This document shows, piece after piece, positions 3,656-17,253 of a stretch of DNA of 37,939 nucleotides; positions within the stretch are counted from its first letter, which is position 1; every line of letters starts with the position of its first letter. Position numbers and translations under genes: made by a program. This DNA comes from Gemmatimonadota bacterium (lineage in GTDB: Bacteria > Gemmatimonadota > Gemmatimonadetes > Gemmatimonadales > Gemmatimonadaceae). The notes under the pieces are model-generated. The model was not told the DNA's origin, made no database searches, and saw only the letters and a program-made list of their open reading frames with translations. The stretch lies in assembly GCA_031127085.1 (NCBI GenBank), contig JARIEY010000009.1, positions 1-37,939 on the forward strand, given 5' to 3'.

Positions 3656-4075
3656 GTGACTGCTGCACCCAAGTGGTTCGTTCCAACTGCCATCGTTGCC
3701 CTTCTGTGGAACCTGATCGGCTGTGCCGCCTACCTTAGCGACGTGATGCTGACTCCCGAGGACATCGCCAAACTCGGAGCGGCCGAGCAGGCCATGTACG
3801 CGGCGCGCCCTGCCTGGTCGGTGGCGGCAACGGCGATCGCGGTCTGGGGCGGCGCCGCCGGCTGCGTGGGGCTGCTGATGCGCCGGCGCTGGGCGACGCC
3901 GGTGTTGATGGCTTCGCTCGCCGGCCTCGTGGTGCAGGACATCTCGCTGATGATGGTGAGCGCGTCGACCGCGATGGATCCCACGGCGCTCGTACTGCAA
4001 AGCGTGGTGCTGCTGATCGGGGTCGGCCTGGTGGCACTCGCTCGCAAGGCAGTGGCGCAGGGGTGGATCGCCTGA
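3656..4075 (+). CDS. Small multi-pass membrane protein, function unknown
   Basis: 139 aa, GTG start, about four hydrophobic segments (VPTAIVALLWNLIGCAAYL, WSVAATAIAVWGGAAGCVGLL, VLMASLAGLVVQDISLMM, LVLQSVVLLIGVGLVAL). Confidence 0.75.
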   Translation: MTAAPKWFVPTAIVALLWNLIGCAAYLSDVMLTPEDIAKLGAAEQAMYAARPAWSVAATAIAVWGGAAGCVGLLMRRRWATPVLMASLAGLVVQDISLMMVSASTAMDPTALVLQSVVLLIGVGLVALARKAVAQGWIA

Positions 4076-4956
4076 CCCAGCCGCTCGTGCTCGGCGTGGG
4101 CGAGGTGCTCTGGGACGTGTATCCCGATGCCGAGCACTTTGGCGGCGCGCCGGCCAACGTGGCGCTGCATGCCGTGGCGTTGGGGGCGGCCGGCGCGCTC
4201 GTCAGCGCGGTGGGATGCGATGCGCGCGGCGCGGCCGCGCTGGCGCGGCTCGATGCCGCGGGCGTGGATCGCGCGGCCGTTGCGTCGCTCGCGGAGCACC
4301 CCACTGGCGCCGTCTCGGTCACGCTCGATGCGTCAGGACAGCCGGCGTACGCGTTCACCCCTCGCAGTGCGCGCGATTGCATTCCGTGGTCGGCCGCGGT
4401 GGCCGCAGTATCGGCGCGCGCCGATGCGGTCTGCTTTGGCTCCATCGCGCAGCGTCGCGATGTGTCGCGTGCCACGATTCAACGCGCGGTGGCAACGGCG
4501 CGAACGGCGCGCTGGCGGCTCTTCGACGTCAATCTGCGGCAGTCGTTTCACGATGCCGATGTCCTCACGGCCTCGTTGCGGCTAGCCAATGCGGTCAAGC
4601 TGAACGAGGAGGAACTCCCGGTCGTCGCGCGGCTTTGCGGGGCGGAGGGAAGCGCGCCAGCAGAGCAAGTCGCGTCGTTGCGCGCGCGCTTCGACTTGGC
4701 GCTCGCCGTGTTGACCCGCGGACCCGCTGGTGCCCTCATCGTCACGGAGACTTCGTGCGAGGAGGTCGCGGGAGTGCCGACATCGGTCGTGGATACGGTA
4801 GGCGCCGGGGATGCCTTCGCGGCGGCCTTGCTGGTGGGGCTGCTGCACGGCCGCCCCCTGACGGAAACGGCCGTGCACGCGAACCGCGTGGCGGCCTATG
4901 TCTGTTCGCAACCGGGGGCGACACCCCCGATTCCCAGGGAGTTGCAGTGGCATTGA
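4063..4956 (+). CDS. PfkB/ribokinase-family sugar kinase (fructokinase-like)
   Basis: VLGVGEVLWDVYPDAEHFGGAPANVALHA N-terminal signature and DTVGAGDAFAAALLVGLL C-terminal signature; overlaps the preceding CDS by 13 nt. Confidence 0.9.
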   Translation: MDRLTQPLVLGVGEVLWDVYPDAEHFGGAPANVALHAVALGAAGALVSAVGCDARGAAALARLDAAGVDRAAVASLAEHPTGAVSVTLDASGQPAYAFTPRSARDCIPWSAAVAAVSARADAVCFGSIAQRRDVSRATIQRAVATARTARWRLFDVNLRQSFHDADVLTASLRLANAVKLNEEELPVVARLCGAEGSAPAEQVASLRARFDLALAVLTRGPAGALIVTETSCEEVAGVPTSVVDTVGAGDAFAAALLVGLLHGRPLTETAVHANRVAAYVCSQPGATPPIPRELQWH

Positions 4957-6743
4957 ACCGAGCACTCCGCCGCGCACGGCAATGGGCACGGCTGACAACG
5001 CAGCTGTCGGTGACGGCGCTGTTGGCGTCGTGTGCGCCACCACACGCACCGCCGGTGTTGGACGCGCCGCGCGCCGTCGCGGTCGACGGCGAGCGCATTC
5101 GCGTGCTGGCGCTTTCTCCTGGTGTGACGGCGACCATCGTGGCGCCGGACCGGCTCGACGCGCGCCGTCCCGTGGAGGTCATTCTCTACGCGCTGCCGAA
5201 CGGCAACTCGACCGCCGAAACGATGGGGCGGCTGATGGGCGACAGCGTAGGGTGGCGGTACGACATTCAGCATATCGGCGCACAGACTCGCGCCCTGCGC
5301 GTGCGCGGGCTGTCGCAGGCCGTGGTGGTGTACCTTGAGGCCGAAACCAAGAGCTGGCCCGCCTGGCGAAGCCGGATGGGCTATGCCCGCGCGAACCGCC
5401 GTCTCGTCGAGCTCATCGAGCAGGTGCGCGTCGAGGTCGGCCGCCCCACGGAGCAGGCGGTGACGCTGGCCGGCCACAGTGGCGGCGGATCGCTGATGTT
5501 CGGGTTCATCGAAGCACAGGACGCGATTCCCGACTGGATTTCGCGCATCGTGTTTCTTGACGCGAACTACAACTTCACGGCGGCGCACGGCGACAAACTG
5601 GTGGCGTGGCTGCAGCGCGACGCGCGACACGTGCTGGGCGTCCTGGCGTATGACGATCGCGAGATCACGCTCGACGGCAAGAAGGTGGTGTCGGACTCGG
5701 GCGGGACGTGGCGCGCGACGGGGCGGATGATCGTACATCTGGGCCGCACGCTCACGTTGATCCGCGACACCCTCGCCGGATTTGAGCGGCTGCGCGCGCC
5801 ACAGGTAGAACTGCTGCGCCATCCGAATCCCGAGAACAGGATCCTGCACACGTCTATGATCGGCGACATGAACGGGTATATGCACGCCCTGCTCGTCGGT
5901 CGGCCGTCGTACGCGCAGGGTGCGCCGGTGCTGGGGCCGCCGCGCGCGTACGTGCCGTTCATCCGCGCCGCCCCCACGCTCCCGGAGGCAACGCCGCCGG
6001 CCATTCCCCCGCGCGCCCTCGGCGCGCCCACGGGGAGCGCGTTCATAGCATCCGTGGCGGGGCTGCCGCGCGAGGCGCGCGAAGCCGCCGTGCGTCGGGA
6101 GCTGATGGCTGGCAACATCCCGGTGTTCCTTCGCACACTGCGTTCCGTCACGGTGCGAGCGGCGGGGCCCGACGGCGTTCCGCACACCGTGACCTATGCG
6201 GTGATGCCGGATTACCTCGCTATCGGATCGGACGACGACTTTGTGCGCATGCCAATGGATCCGTACACGGCGCAGACCTTTTGCGATGCCTTCGGGTTCG
6301 TCTTGCCGACGCGCAAGATGGTCAACGATATCTGGACAGCGGCGACGGTTCGCGTCGAACCGCGGCCACTGGTGCAGGATCGCGATTCAGCGCGCACCTT
6401 CCTGCAGCACCATCGCCTCATCGAGGAGCAACTGGCCGGCCAGGGGCGTGGCGCACTGGTGGCCGGCATGAAGAAGGATGTGGTGGTGACCAACCGCCTG
6501 CAGGAACGCGCGAACCGCGTAGCGATCTACGGTTGGCACTACGTCCGCGGGGAGCCGATTCAACCGCTGTACACGGGACACGTCGACTGGTACGTGGACT
6601 ACAGCCACGGCATCCGCCCGGTGCGCCGCTGGATGCAGGTGGATGGCACGACCCGCACCTACGAGGCGATCCTGAATGACCCGCAGCTGGCGACCTTACT
6701 CAGCGACGAAGGGGTCATTCTGGCGCCGCGGTATGAGCGGTAG
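4947..6743 (+). CDS. Putative lipoprotein with alpha/beta-hydrolase-like module plus uncharacterized C-terminal module
   Basis: Frame of ORF 4215..6743. GTG at 4947 overlaps the kinase stop by 10 nt. N-terminus TALLASC (possible lipobox); nucleophile-elbow-like TLAGHSGGGSLMFG; C-terminal FVLPTRKMVNDIWTAATV and YGWHYVRGEPIQPLYTGHVDWYVDYSHGIRPV. Confidence 0.8.
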   Translation: MALNRALRRARQWARLTTQLSVTALLASCAPPHAPPVLDAPRAVAVDGERIRVLALSPGVTATIVAPDRLDARRPVEVILYALPNGNSTAETMGRLMGDSVGWRYDIQHIGAQTRALRVRGLSQAVVVYLEAETKSWPAWRSRMGYARANRRLVELIEQVRVEVGRPTEQAVTLAGHSGGGSLMFGFIEAQDAIPDWISRIVFLDANYNFTAAHGDKLVAWLQRDARHVLGVLAYDDREITLDGKKVVSDSGGTWRATGRMIVHLGRTLTLIRDTLAGFERLRAPQVELLRHPNPENRILHTSMIGDMNGYMHALLVGRPSYAQGAPVLGPPRAYVPFIRAAPTLPEATPPAIPPRALGAPTGSAFIASVAGLPREAREAAVRRELMAGNIPVFLRTLRSVTVRAAGPDGVPHTVTYAVMPDYLAIGSDDDFVRMPMDPYTAQTFCDAFGFVLPTRKMVNDIWTAATVRVEPRPLVQDRDSARTFLQHHRLIEEQLAGQGRGALVAGMKKDVVVTNRLQERANRVAIYGWHYVRGEPIQPLYTGHVDWYVDYSHGIRPVRRWMQVDGTTRTYEAILNDPQLATLLSDEGVILAPRYER

Positions 6744-6824
6744 CCTGGCGACGGCCTCACCGCTCCCGCCTGCCGCCGCGAGCCGCTCGCCGTATCTTTG
6801 TCGGACCCCCAGCCCCCTTTTCTG

Positions 6825-9800
6825 ATGACCCGCCTGCTTCGTCGCGCGCTGTCGCCCGTCGCGCTCGCCCTTTGTGCCGCGTCCGCGGCTGCCCAGGATG
6901 AACCCAAGCCGGGAACGCCGACCATCCCCGCCAAGTGGGATGTGCTGGCCAAACACGGCCCGTCAAAGGACCTGACCTTCGAGACCTCCGAAGGCACGTG
7001 GATGTCGGTCGACATCTCGCCCGACGGACGCACCCTCGTCTTCGATCTGCTCGGCGATCTCTACACGCTGCCGATCGAGGGCGGCAAAGCCGCGCTGCTG
7101 CGCGGCGGCCCGGCGTACGAGACGATGCCCCGTTGGTCGCCCGATGGCACGCGCATCGCGTTCACCTCGGATCGTGACGGCATCGAGAACCTGTGGACGA
7201 TGGCCGCCGATGGGAGCGATCTCCGGCAGGTGAGCAAGGAGAAGGAACGTCAGGTGTCCAACCCGGCGTGGACGCCAGACGGCCGCTTTCTCATCGGGCG
7301 CAAGCATTTCCGCAACACGCGCTCGCTGGGCTCCGGCGAAATGTGGCTGTACCACGTGGCAGGCGGTGCCGGCATCAAGCTGACCGACCGGCGCAACTGG
7401 GAGCAGAACGCCACCGAACCCACGGTTTCGCCGGATGGTCGCTACGTCTACTTCAGCGAAGACGTGTCGCCGGGCGGCGGCTTCCAGTACAACCGGAATC
7501 CGCATGCGGTGGTGTACGTGATTCAGCGACTCGACCGCGAGACGGGGGAGCGCACGACCTGGATTGGCGGCAATGGCGGCTCGCTGCGCCCCACGCTGTC
7601 GCCCAACGGCAAGACCTTGGCCTTTGTGCGTCGCGTCGGCATCAAGTCGGTGCTTACCCTCCACGATCAGGAAAGCGGCAAGGAACGCGCGCTGTGGGAC
7701 GGCCTGGACCACGATCAGCAGGAAGCGTGGGCCATCTTTGGCACCTACCCCGGCTTCGACTGGACCCCCGATGGGTCGGCGCTGGTGCTCTGGGCGCAGG
7801 GCAAGCTGTGGCGCGTGGATGCCGCGAGCGGCGCCACCCGCAACATTCCATTCACCGCATCGGTCACGCAGACGATCACCGAGGCCGTGCGCTTTCCGCA
7901 GGCGGTCGCACCTGACTCCTTCGATGTGAAGATGCTGCGCTGGGTTTCGGTGTCGCCCGATCAGCGGCAGGTGGCGTACACCGCGCTCGGCAAGCTGTAC
8001 GTCCGCACGCTTCCCGACGGTGCCCCTCGCAGGGTCACGACGGCTGCGCGCGGGCTTGAACTCTACCCGGCCTGGTCGCCGGACGGCCGCCGCCTCGTGT
8101 ACGCCTCGTACGACGAAGATTCGCTGGGGGCCATTCGCACCGTGGCCATCGATGGCAGCGCGCCCCGCCGGCTGACCACGCGCCCCGGGCACTACATCGC
8201 GCCGCAGTTCTCACCCGACGGTCAACGGGTGGTGTTCCGCCGCACGGGTGGCGACCAGCTGCGCAGCGTCGAACACAGCCGCGAGCAGGGGATCTACGTC
8301 GTGTCGGCAGACGGCGGCGACCCGGCCTTCGTGACGCGCGAGGGCAGCGACCCGCGGTTCATGCGCAGCGGCAACCGCCTCTTCCTCTCGTCGAGCGAAG
8401 GCGAGAAAGCGGCACTCATCTCCGTCAACCTCACAGGGGGCGAGCGGCGTGTGCACCTGGTGGCCGAGAACGCCACTGAGTTTGCGCCCTCACCGGACGA
8501 GCAGTACATCGCGTGGGCCGAGCGGTTCAACGCCTTCGTGGCGCCGTTTGCGGCGACTGGACGCGCCGTGAGCATCGGGCCGTCGACGACCGACATTCCC
8601 GTGCGCCGCGTCTCCCGCGATGCCGGCACCGATCTGCATTGGTCGGCGGACTCGAAGACGATGTTCTGGACGCTTGGTCCGCAGCTCTTCACCCGCGCGC
8701 TAAGCGAGACGTTCGCGTTCGAGACTGCCGACAGCGCCACCGTGCGCAAGGAGCCTGAGCCGAGCGGTCGGGCCATCAGCTTTCGGGCTCCCACGGCCAA
8801 GCCCACTGGCGTCGTGGCACTGACCGGCGGCACGGCGATCACGATGAACGGGCGTGAGGTGATTCGCAACGCGACCATCGTGGTGGACGGCAACCGCATT
8901 ACTGCCATCGGCGCCGCGGGGGCGGTGAAGGTGCCGGCGGGCGCCCGTCGCGTGGATGTGTCGGGCAAGTACATCGTCCCGGGCTTCGTCGACGCGCACG
9001 CGCACATTGGCACCGGCTCGGCGGGGATCACGGCGCTCCGCAATTCGCAGATGCTACAGGCCATGGCCTTCGGCGTGACGACGATGCACGATCCGTCGAA
9101 CGCGACGGACATGGTCTTCAGCGCGTCGGAAATGCAGAAGTCGGGCGCGCTTGCCGTCGCACCGCGGCTCTTCTCCACCGGCACCATCCTGTATGGCGCC
9201 GAAGGGAGCATCAAGGCGATCACGACGACGTTCGATGAAGCGCTCACGCACCTGCGACGCATGCAGGCCGTGGGGGCGTTCAGCGTGAAGAGCTACAACC
9301 AGCCGCGGCGCGATGCGCGGCAGCAAATCGTCGAAGCCGCACGCCAGCTCGGCATGGAGGTGGTGCCCGAGGGTGGCAGCACGTTCTTCTTCAACATGAC
9401 GCACGTGCTGGATGGCCATACCACGGTGGAGCACAACCTGCCGGTGGCGCCGCTGTACGGCGACGTGTTGAAGGTCTTTGCGGCGAGCAAAACCGGGTAC
9501 ACGCCCACGCTCATCGTCAACTACGGCGGACTGAGCGGCGAGTACTACTGGTATGCCTACGACGAAGTCTGGAAGGACGAGCGCCTGCGCCGTTTCATGT
9601 TCCCCGGCGCGCTTGAGGCGCGCGCGCGCCGGCGCGAGACGGCGGCGCAGGACGACTGGTCGTTTCAGGCGACATCGCGGGCGGCCAAGGCGCTCAATGA
9701 TCTGGGGGTGCGCGTGAACACGGGCGCGCATGGCCAGCTCCAGGGGTTGGGCCTGCATTGGGAGATGTGGATGCTGGCCCAGGGTGGCATGTCCCCGCAC

Positions 9801-10007
9801 AATGTGCTGCGCGCGGCGACGATCAACGGGGCCGAGTCGTTGGGGCTCGATGCGGACATTGGCTCGCTGGCCAAGGGGAAGCTGGCCGACCTGCTGGTGC
9901 TCGATCGCAATCCGCTGGAAAGCATCCGGCACAGCAGTGCGATCCGGTGGGTGATGGCCAACGGTCGGCTCTATGAGGCCGCCACGATGACGCCGGCCGG
10001 GCGGTAA
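6825..10007 (+). CDS. Secreted TolB-like beta-propeller (PD40) / amidohydrolase fusion protein
   Basis: Repeated propeller motifs (YETMPRWSPDGTRIAFTSDRDG, LYPAWSPDGRRLVYAS, IAPQFSPDGQRVVFRR) followed by IVPGFVDAHAHIGTG ... ESLGLDADIGSLAKGKLADLLVLDRNPLE. Likely start ATG at 6825 (signal peptide MTRLLRRALSPVALALCAASAAAQ). Confidence 0.92.
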   Translation: MTRLLRRALSPVALALCAASAAAQDEPKPGTPTIPAKWDVLAKHGPSKDLTFETSEGTWMSVDISPDGRTLVFDLLGDLYTLPIEGGKAALLRGGPAYETMPRWSPDGTRIAFTSDRDGIENLWTMAADGSDLRQVSKEKERQVSNPAWTPDGRFLIGRKHFRNTRSLGSGEMWLYHVAGGAGIKLTDRRNWEQNATEPTVSPDGRYVYFSEDVSPGGGFQYNRNPHAVVYVIQRLDRETGERTTWIGGNGGSLRPTLSPNGKTLAFVRRVGIKSVLTLHDQESGKERALWDGLDHDQQEAWAIFGTYPGFDWTPDGSALVLWAQGKLWRVDAASGATRNIPFTASVTQTITEAVRFPQAVAPDSFDVKMLRWVSVSPDQRQVAYTALGKLYVRTLPDGAPRRVTTAARGLELYPAWSPDGRRLVYASYDEDSLGAIRTVAIDGSAPRRLTTRPGHYIAPQFSPDGQRVVFRRTGGDQLRSVEHSREQGIYVVSADGGDPAFVTREGSDPRFMRSGNRLFLSSSEGEKAALISVNLTGGERRVHLVAENATEFAPSPDEQYIAWAERFNAFVAPFAATGRAVSIGPSTTDIPVRRVSRDAGTDLHWSADSKTMFWTLGPQLFTRALSETFAFETADSATVRKEPEPSGRAISFRAPTAKPTGVVALTGGTAITMNGREVIRNATIVVDGNRITAIGAAGAVKVPAGARRVDVSGKYIVPGFVDAHAHIGTGSAGITALRNSQMLQAMAFGVTTMHDPSNATDMVFSASEMQKSGALAVAPRLFSTGTILYGAEGSIKAITTTFDEALTHLRRMQAVGAFSVKSYNQPRRDARQQIVEAARQLGMEVVPEGGSTFFFNMTHVLDGHTTVEHNLPVAPLYGDVLKVFAASKTGYTPTLIVNYGGLSGEYYWYAYDEVWKDERLRRFMFPGALEARARRRETAAQDDWSFQATSRAAKALNDLGVRVNTGAHGQLQGLGLHWEMWMLAQGGMSPHNVLRAATINGAESLGLDADIGSLAKGKLADLLVLDRNPLESIRHSSAIRWVMANGRLYEAATMTPAGR

Positions 10008-14393: not shown

Positions 14394-15692
14394 CTACTTC
14401 GTGACGCCCTGGAACGTCGGGGTGTAGCCCGGGAAGATGAGGTCGAGGTTCGGGTTGCCCAGCCGGTTCTTCACGATCTCGGCGAGCACGTCGCGGTGAT
14501 CCACCGTCACCTTCACGTCCTGGCTGTCGGCCAGATTTTCCCGCGCCAGCGGCATCCAGTTCTTGGTGTGCACGCGGCCGCCGGCGATCTGCTTGCCCAT
14601 GACGAACATGCAGCTGCCGCGCCCGTGGTCCGTGCCCTGCGAGCCGTTCTCACGAACATTCCGGCCGAACTCCGACATCGCCACGACCGTCACGTTGTAG
14701 TTGCCGTTGCCCTGTAGCACGTCGGCCCAGAAGGCGCCCAGCCCGTTGGAGAAGTCGGTCATCAGCGTGGCCATCAGCCCCGACAGCGGATTCTGCGTCT
14801 GGTGCGTGTCCCAGCCGCCGATGTCCACCTGGATCGCCTCCACGCCCACGTCCGCCTTGATGAGCGCGGCCGCCGATCGCAGGCCGCGACCAAAGCTCGA
14901 GTTGGGATACGTGGCCCCGTTGGCCGGCGCGTAGGTGCTGATGTTGAGCGAGGCCAGCAGCGAGAGCGTGGCGGCGGCGTCGAGCGCGGCGCTGCGCACG
15001 GGTTCTTCGGTCAGCGCGTAGTTGGCGTTGAGCCAGGCCTGACGTGCCGTGCGCGTGGTGCTGCTGCCGGCCAGCACGTAGTTCGCGGGATCCGGGATGG
15101 GGAGCACTTTCGGGGCTCCCTCGAGTGCGTTGGGGAGTCCCTGCGACACCGACAGTGCGCGCAGCGTCGCGGCGGTGCTCATGGGCGGCACGGTGGCGAG
15201 GTGCCGGCCGAGCCAGCCGGTAGAAACCGAGGGATCAGCGGCCTTGCCGACTTCGATGAACCGTTGGGCATCGAAGTGCGACCGTGAGTTGTACGAGAGG
15301 CCAGCGCCCTGAATCACCAGCAACTGGCCGGCCTGATAGCTCGGCAGCAGACCGAGCATCGCGGGCGCAAAGCCCCACATCGTGCTGTCGAGCGCCGTCG
15401 CCTTGGCGGTGCCAGAGGCGTCGGGGCGCGGGATCGCGATGGTCGAGCGCCCTGTGTAGTAGTTGGTGTCGCCCCACGGGACGCACAACGACAGCCCGTC
15501 CGCACCGCCGCGCATGAACACGTGCACGATGATGTCGCGCGTGCTCGCGGTCGGAGCGAGGATGACCCGTGGGAGCCACTCAGGGACGGCGGCGGCGAAA
15601 ACCGACGCGCCCGCCGCGTTCATCACGAATCGGCGCCGCGAGAGCGCGGCGTATTCGTCGCAGCCGCAGGCTTCGTGTTCGCGATCGCTCAT
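14394..15692 (-). CDS. DUF1501 family protein with Tat-like leader
   Basis: LSRRRFVMNAAGASVFAAAVPEWLP leader; IIVHVFMRGGADGLSLCVPWGD, VQVDIGGWDTHQTQN, VVAMSEFGRNVRENGSQGTDHGRGSCMFVMG are DUF1501 hallmarks. Confidence 0.93.
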   Translation of the reverse strand: MSDREHEACGCDEYAALSRRRFVMNAAGASVFAAAVPEWLPRVILAPTASTRDIIVHVFMRGGADGLSLCVPWGDTNYYTGRSTIAIPRPDASGTAKATALDSTMWGFAPAMLGLLPSYQAGQLLVIQGAGLSYNSRSHFDAQRFIEVGKAADPSVSTGWLGRHLATVPPMSTAATLRALSVSQGLPNALEGAPKVLPIPDPANYVLAGSSTTRTARQAWLNANYALTEEPVRSAALDAAATLSLLASLNISTYAPANGATYPNSSFGRGLRSAAALIKADVGVEAIQVDIGGWDTHQTQNPLSGLMATLMTDFSNGLGAFWADVLQGNGNYNVTVVAMSEFGRNVRENGSQGTDHGRGSCMFVMGKQIAGGRVHTKNWMPLARENLADSQDVKVTVDHRDVLAEIVKNRLGNPNLDLIFPGYTPTFQGVTK

Positions 15693-15714
15693 CGCCGGCT
15701 CCGGGGGCTAGGGC

Positions 15715-17253
15715 TCAGTACCATTGGAAGGCGCTCGACGACAGGGCCAGGGCGAGCGTCTCACGGACGCGCGTGGCGTTGATGGTGCCGGCCGTGAGAT
15801 AGGTGGTCAGTTCGCCGCGCAGCGTCGCGTGCATTTCCCCGCCAAACGCCATGGCGTCAATCGTGTCGCAGATGGCCGCCGCGGTGGAACCGAACCGTGT
15901 GTACACGGCGTCCGACACGATGATCTGGCCGGAGGCGGAGTTGGCGATGGTCGACATCGAGTTCCATCGTGGCAGCACATTGCCCGACCAGTACTCCACG
16001 CGATCCGGGTACCCGTCCGGAGTCTCCCAGTCGAACATCACGTGCCCCATCTGCGAGAGCATGCCGCGCATCGTGCTGAGCGAGGCGGCGGGAATCAGCG
16101 CGCCGCTGCCGCGCAGGGCGCTGATCATCAGATGGTACGGGCGCTTGTATCGTGCGGGCGCGGCAACCAGCCAGCTCTGCGTGAAGACCACGCGCAACAT
16201 CGCCTTGATGTCGCCGCCGGTCTGCGTGTACGCGCTGGCCACGGCGGCCACCTGCTCGGCGGTGGGGTCGGGGCGCACGAAGAACTTCAGCAGCTTCGTG
16301 GCAATGAATGTCGCCGTGCTGGGGTGCGCGATCAGGACGTCGAGCATCTGCTCCATGTCCGTTTGCCCCTGCCCGCTGTTCGTCGCGCGCTGGGGAATGG
16401 TGACCCCGAGGACGGTCTTGGCATTGAAGTCGTGCAACGCAGCGTTGAAGACGAACGCGCCCTGCGCGTTGAGCGTCCAGCCGGTGAGGCAGCGGCTCAA
16501 CTCGGCAACATCGTTCTGCGTGTACCCACCGTCGACGCCCACCGAATGAAGCTCGAGGATCTCGCGCGCGTAGTTCTGATTGGGCGAGCCGTTCCGATTG
16601 ACGTTGTTGTCGAGGTACGCCAGCATCGCCGGGCTGTGTGCGCTGGCCTTGAGCAGCGTCCCGAAATTGCCCAGCGCGTTCTTGCGAATGACCTCGCGAT
16701 GGTCGGCCACCATCAGGTAGCCGACCTTGTTGAAGTAGATCGTAAAGTGGTCGTTCCAGAACTCGACCATCCGCTCGTGCAACTGCCGCGGCGACATCAC
16801 CTGGCGATAGATCGTGGCATCGGTCAGCTGCTGCAGGATGGTGCCCTGGTTGGCCTGCACCAGCTGCGTCGGGAGCTGGTTGACCATCGGCCAGTTGGTA
16901 GCCACCGCGCTCTCGACCGCCGTGTCGTCGAGCGCGGCGGTATTGAGCTGGTACTCCAGAAAGCCCTTGTATCCCAGCTTGAGGGCGCGCTGCGCTTCGG
17001 CTGGCGTGAGACCGAACGTGATGCGCCGTGCGAGGCGCAACGCGGGACGCGACCAGCTTTCGGTGGCGGCAACGGCGGCCGGCGCGCGGCGCGGGTGGAA
17101 CAGCTCGGCCGTACTCAGGGTCGCTCGCGTGTCTGGCTGCGCAGGGGCCGCGCCACGCCGGCGCTGCCCCTCGGCGGAGCGGGGCACGGCAAGCGCCGCG
17201 AGCGCCGCCGCGCCGGCGGCGATGGCAGAGCGACGGCTGGACGGTTCGGTCAT
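15715..17253 (-). CDS. DUF1800 family protein with Tat-like leader
   Basis: SSRRSAIAAGAAALAALAVPRSAEG leader; RRITFGLTPAEAQ, RMVEFWNDHFTIYFNK, NENYAREI-like NQNYAREILELHSVGVDGGYTQNDVAELSRCLTGW. Confidence 0.93.
   Translation of the reverse strand: MTEPSSRRSAIAAGAAALAALAVPRSAEGQRRRGAAPAQPDTRATLSTAELFHPRRAPAAVAATESWSRPALRLARRITFGLTPAEAQRALKLGYKGFLEYQLNTAALDDTAVESAVATNWPMVNQLPTQLVQANQGTILQQLTDATIYRQVMSPRQLHERMVEFWNDHFTIYFNKVGYLMVADHREVIRKNALGNFGTLLKASAHSPAMLAYLDNNVNRNGSPNQNYAREILELHSVGVDGGYTQNDVAELSRCLTGWTLNAQGAFVFNAALHDFNAKTVLGVTIPQRATNSGQGQTDMEQMLDVLIAHPSTATFIATKLLKFFVRPDPTAEQVAAVASAYTQTGGDIKAMLRVVFTQSWLVAAPARYKRPYHLMISALRGSGALIPAASLSTMRGMLSQMGHVMFDWETPDGYPDRVEYWSGNVLPRWNSMSTIANSASGQIIVSDAVYTRFGSTAAAICDTIDAMAFGGEMHATLRGELTTYLTAGTINATRVRETLALALSSSAFQWY

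Follow-up and report, generated by a model that had tools for sequence, protein, structure and literature searches.

What kind of protein is encoded by a 598-codon reading frame in a Gemmatimonadota genome, and do its two halves, as a preliminary description of the DNA proposed, represent a hydrolase-like lipoprotein joined to an independent catalytic domain of no nameable family? The locus lies in a 37,939-nt stretch of contig JARIEY010000009.1 (hereafter the window), and its features are collected in Table 1.

Gene, cell location and module boundary

An ORF check of the window returned the limits described earlier (GTG at 4947, stop codon ending at 6743, 598 aa). Full-length orthologues without stop codons are present in four genomes of the same genus at 65–69% identity, and several phyla contribute 37 further loci of the same architecture; 4947–6743 is therefore a real gene rather than a chance reading frame. 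It is present in a single copy in its own genome. GGGAG is found approximately 6 nt 5′ of the GTG, and the overlap with the PfkB sugar kinase gene makes it probable that the two genes are co-transcribed. Neighboring genes of single genomes revealed no pathway. Directly 3′ of the gene, the window encodes a 1069-aa PD40 propeller fused to an amidohydrolase (6798–10007); adjoining DUF1501 and DUF1800 genes, a pair annotated without function, occupy 14394–17253 on the minus strand, and a small membrane protein lacking a Pfam match is encoded at 3656–4075.

Table 1 Features of the two-module locus, in window positions
Feature	Position	Strand	Remarks
PfkB sugar kinase gene	4063–4956	+	3′ end overlaps start of two-module gene by 10 nt
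Two-module lipoprotein gene	4947–6743	+	598 aa, GTG start; orthologues in 4 same-genus genomes
Signal peptide with lipobox LLAS-C29	4947–5033	+	orthologues carry lipoboxes too
N module, alpha/beta-hydrolase (predicted)	5085–6011	+	residues 47–355 including linker; Ser178, Asp236/237, His301
Nucleophile elbow GHSGGG (predicted)	5472–5489	+	residues 176–181; H, S, G and G invariant in 41 sequences
C module, undescribed domain	6012–6740	+	residues 356–598 (∼240 aa)
Proposed active-site stretch of C module	6471–6617	+	K509-K510-D511, W530, Q539, H545, D551-Y-S-H554, R557

The N terminus of the protein is positively charged and continues into a hydrophobic stretch and the lipobox, as is typical of a bacterial lipoprotein signal peptide, and lipoboxes are likewise present in stand-alone relatives. 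From these sequence features we infer a secreted, lipidated and membrane-tethered protein.

The two modules are separable and meet at about residue 350, a division borne out by natural split forms. A same-genus genome carries the N module only, as a complete lipoprotein gene with its own lipobox that aligns to residues 21–352 (L007), while a same-family genome carries the C module only, behind a signal peptide and lipobox of its own, aligning to residues 352–590 at 49% identity (L008). Since these alignments end and begin at residue 352, the division near residue 340 suggested in the preliminary description was correct to within about 12 residues. A gene similar to the small membrane protein of the window is found upstream of L007. 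A further weak match (L009, E 3e-4) was located in an unrelated region and was dropped. AlphaFold modeling of the full-length protein from an alignment of 37 fused proteins gave a mean pLDDT of 93.8 and a pTM of 0.90.

The N module as a predicted esterase

Foldseek comparison of the full-length model yielded 117 PDB matches at E ≤ 1e-3 (best E 1.5e-6, probability 1.00), the leading entries for the N module being feruloyl esterases and PHB depolymerases. S178, D205 and H301 do not vary across 41 sequences, and D236/D237 hardly do. In the AlphaFold model, D236/D237 directly follow the last strand before the histidine region, which is where the acid of alpha/beta-hydrolases is usually found. The N module thus combines the fold match with a serine elbow, an acid and a histidine in the expected order, and the alpha/beta-hydrolase character previously assigned to this half is supported by both the fold match and the conserved residues. 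No Pfam family reached its gathering score; sub-threshold matches among N-module members were to Abhydrolase_6, Lipase_3 and Hydrolase_4 (best E 2.9e-4, Abhydrolase_6), and the N module of the window itself matched nothing in Pfam below E 0.05. The predicted model and the conservation pattern place the module among the alpha/beta-hydrolases; its triad appears intact, and it most likely acts as an esterase.

The C module in bacteria and giant phages

The predicted esterase is the ordinary part of the protein; interest attaches to the other half, a conserved and widespread domain common to bacterial lipoproteins and giant phages that belongs to no described family in the libraries searched. No match to the C module was obtained in Pfam (91 members searched), NCBIfam, PHROGs, PADLOC or PDB sequences, and no paper containing the motif DYSHG or treating an equivalent protein was found in the literature. 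The C-terminal stretches quoted in the preliminary description are present in the protein, its view that this half is independent and of no nameable family held, and no confident full-length match of the protein to a single described family emerged. The stand-alone C-terminal homologues it proposed to look for were found as both bacterial lipoproteins and phage proteins. A single scan of 84,980 species genomes located 383 C-module loci, and the 80 of these that were read fall in at least six phyla (Gemmatimonadota, Planctomycetota, Sumerlaeota, Bacteroidota, Armatimonadota and Neomarinimicrobiota). A search of plasmids for the C module gave no match. The domain is probably a widespread uncharacterized enzyme, as predicted from the residues considered below.

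The C module occurs in several architectures. Many Bacteroidota loci encode it alone as a short protein, and Chitinophaga cymbidii (L058) and Pontibacter indicus (L065) are among the bacteria with stand-alone relatives; one relative joins it to Golvesin_C (L067; E 1.6e-26), and others join it to lectin-like or EF-hand/dockerin-like stretches with weak profile support. In one further relative (L108:310–2208), the C module lies behind a multi-membrane-spanning, cysteine-rich N-terminal part. Two Phycisphaerae loci encode the N and C modules as neighboring genes, the N gene directly following the C gene on the same strand a few nucleotides apart in one (L046) and adjoining it convergently in the other (L042). 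Among 395 genomes of the window's phylum, the N module is present in 11, the C module in 23 and both in 8, as compared to approximately 0.6 expected if independent; the N module persists without the C module in three (G004, G091 and G196). On a midpoint-rooted tree, the fusion label requires five changes, so fusion or splitting occurred more than once or the fusion moved between lineages.

The C module was also detected in 35 viral contigs, many of 120–485 kb, and in the deposited 485-kb phage LR745208; N-module relatives sought in the viral contigs were not found. Phage C proteins are mostly stand-alone, 250–300 aa in length and, with few exceptions, devoid of a signal peptide, and their branches on the tree are long and diverse. 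Several phages encode a second, longer copy directly downstream; paired genes of this kind were seen in L149, L154, L155, L159, L160 and L165 (about 5.9–8.1 kb). Beside the C genes, reading by eye also showed a short gene similar to translation initiation factor IF-1 (L149:8006–8224, L155:7670–7882 and L165:7982–8197). A terminase profile (phrog_2) adds little, since besides 6 of 20 phage records it also matched bacterial controls. Among seven phages with PG_binding_1 (PF01471), the C gene lies within ∼4.2 kb in three; at a distance of 5 kb, a threshold chosen afterwards, p is about 0.003. One phage encodes an Amidase_2 endolysin near the C gene (L172). In most other phages, the surrounding genes, read by eye, are tail-fibre-like or concerned with nucleotide metabolism, and in most phages examined, e.g., the L149/L155 group, no lysis gene stands beside the C gene.

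Polar residues stand out in the conservation of this family. Almost every bacterial and first-copy phage sequence retains D422, T455, K510, D511, W530, Q539, H545, D551, Y552, H554 and R557, a near-invariant set that spans 91 bacterial and approximately 30 phage sequences at roughly 30–75% identity and looks like a putative active site. The earlier proposal that this half is catalytic is favored by these residues, with one correction: His531 of the motif YGWH is unlikely to be catalytic because it is replaced by Phe, Ile or Met in phages, and more plausible catalytic residues are K510, D511, W530, Q539, H545, D551, H554 and R557. A nucleophilic Cys or Ser is disfavored, since conserved Cys residues are lacking and S553 gives way to Ala in some sequences; acid/base or metal-dependent chemistry is therefore probable. 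Five of the six downstream phage copies replace D551 with Glu together with H554 by Thr or Ala. Paired loss of site residues is the pattern of pseudo-enzymes, and the second copies likely represent pseudo-enzyme partners whose site appears to have been released from selection.

AlphaFold predicted the fold of the C module with very high confidence (pLDDT 97.4, pTM 0.94). A Foldseek search with this model gave no PDB or viral model match at E < 1e-3, and the best matches were weak (E 0.035–0.65, TM ∼0.3). Seven of the eight best PDB matches are to Mtd (five times), OvsA and the aggrecan link module, entries which we take to contain C-type-lectin-type (CLec) folds. The segment TAQTFCDAFGFVLPTRKMVNDIW resembles the helix-pair motif A..xC...G..LPT of FGE and link proteins, and hhalign aligned exactly this segment with PF03781 (FGE-sulfatase), at a score of 18.2 (P about 0.1) that was exceeded by 4 of 60 column shuffles. 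The PF03781 profile matched none of 91 C-module members, nor did it match the genome in which the two-module gene sits. Homology to FGE/CLec domains, attractive by eye and by Foldseek rank, was not significant by hhalign, with shuffles scoring as high, and is kept only as a rival explanation.

Possible joint function and comparison with known systems

The reading we prefer, and to which we give about an even chance, is that the secreted, membrane-tethered lipoprotein holds two enzymes acting on the same extracellular or cell-wall polymer. The N module would be a serine esterase that removes ester-linked groups, its nearest solved folds being feruloyl esterases, PHB depolymerases and acetyl xylan esterase; the C module would cleave or modify the polymer so attacked, most likely a glycan or peptidoglycan, by an acid/base or metal-type site formed from K510, D511, Q539, H545, D551, H554 and R557. 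Consistent with two enzymes are the natural stand-alone halves, the N-module fold with its Ser-Asp-His order, the near-invariant C-module polar set and the joint loss of D551 and H554 in second phage copies; a functional link is indicated by the recurrent fusion, the two adjacent gene pairs and the excess of co-occurrence. The relatives with Golvesin_C and lectin-like or EF-hand-like parts, and the proximity to PG_binding_1 in three of seven phages, also count in its favor. Weighing against two cooperating enzymes, most phages examined have no lysis gene beside the C gene, bacterial neighborhoods are not conserved, the N module persists without the C module, its Pfam matches are sub-threshold, and the conserved C-module residues could bind rather than catalyze. 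That the modules do not cooperate, the protein being a secreted esterase of ordinary kind to which another domain happens to be attached, would fit the occurrence of each half alone and neighborhoods without a common pathway. Fusion and adjacency recurring across phyla speak against it, as do 8 co-occurrences where about 0.6 are expected, and we consider it very doubtful.

Binding rather than catalysis would follow if the C module were a far-diverged CLec fold targeting the esterase to its polymer, as the Foldseek ranking and the FGE/link likeness of TAQTFCDAFGFVLPTRKMVNDIW might suggest; this is rather unlikely in our estimation, given fold matches of E 0.035 or worse and an alignment score reached by shuffled columns. 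So many charged residues invariant from bacteria to phages are moreover rare in binding sites, and in phages with a stand-alone copy there is no partner module for it to direct. A more specific form of the two-enzyme reading has bacteria recruiting a phage-derived peptidoglycan hydrolase or amidase, the C module, as an envelope lipoprotein; it draws on the signal-less phage copies, their long and diverse branches, the peptidoglycan-binding genes nearby in three phages and the neighboring Amidase_2 endolysin. Such context is confined to a minority of phages, however, a midpoint-rooted tree gives no direction of transfer, and the C module matched no peptidoglycan enzyme in sequence or fold, leaving this form rather unlikely as well. 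Similarly tentative, and given low confidence, is the bolder proposal that the C module is the first member of a new family of enzymes that act on cell walls and whose fold has no solved counterpart; giant phages would employ it in lysis or entry, and bacteria of at least six phyla as a lipoprotein of the envelope, in many cases fused to an esterase suited to it.

The domain occurs in hundreds of bacterial species and many giant phages, yet none of four family libraries contains it and no related structure has been solved. Should it prove to be an enzyme, bacterial envelopes and phages would share an unassigned activity, and either half can be tested directly in the forms that occur split in nature. 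Compared with known systems, the N module resembles alpha/beta-hydrolase esterases (feruloyl esterase 8iy8, PHB depolymerase 8daj/9byu and acetyl xylan esterase 5x6s) in fold, nucleophile elbow and Ser-Asp-His order, but it differs from them in its ∼11% identity, in having no Pfam family at cut-off and in its fusion to an unrelated second domain. The C module, whose best though weak structural neighbors are C-type-lectin/FGE-type folds (Major tropism determinant, OvsA, the link module and PF03781) and which shares with them a helix-pair motif ending in LPT, is set apart by the lack of a significant fold or profile match, including to PF03781, and by other conserved residues. Whereas its second module falls in no described glycanase or binding family found, the 598-aa protein is reminiscent of multimodular esterase-glycan enzymes, e.g., CE1-type esterases joined to glycanases, in uniting a secreted, predicted esterase with a second module and in having relatives with lectin-like parts.
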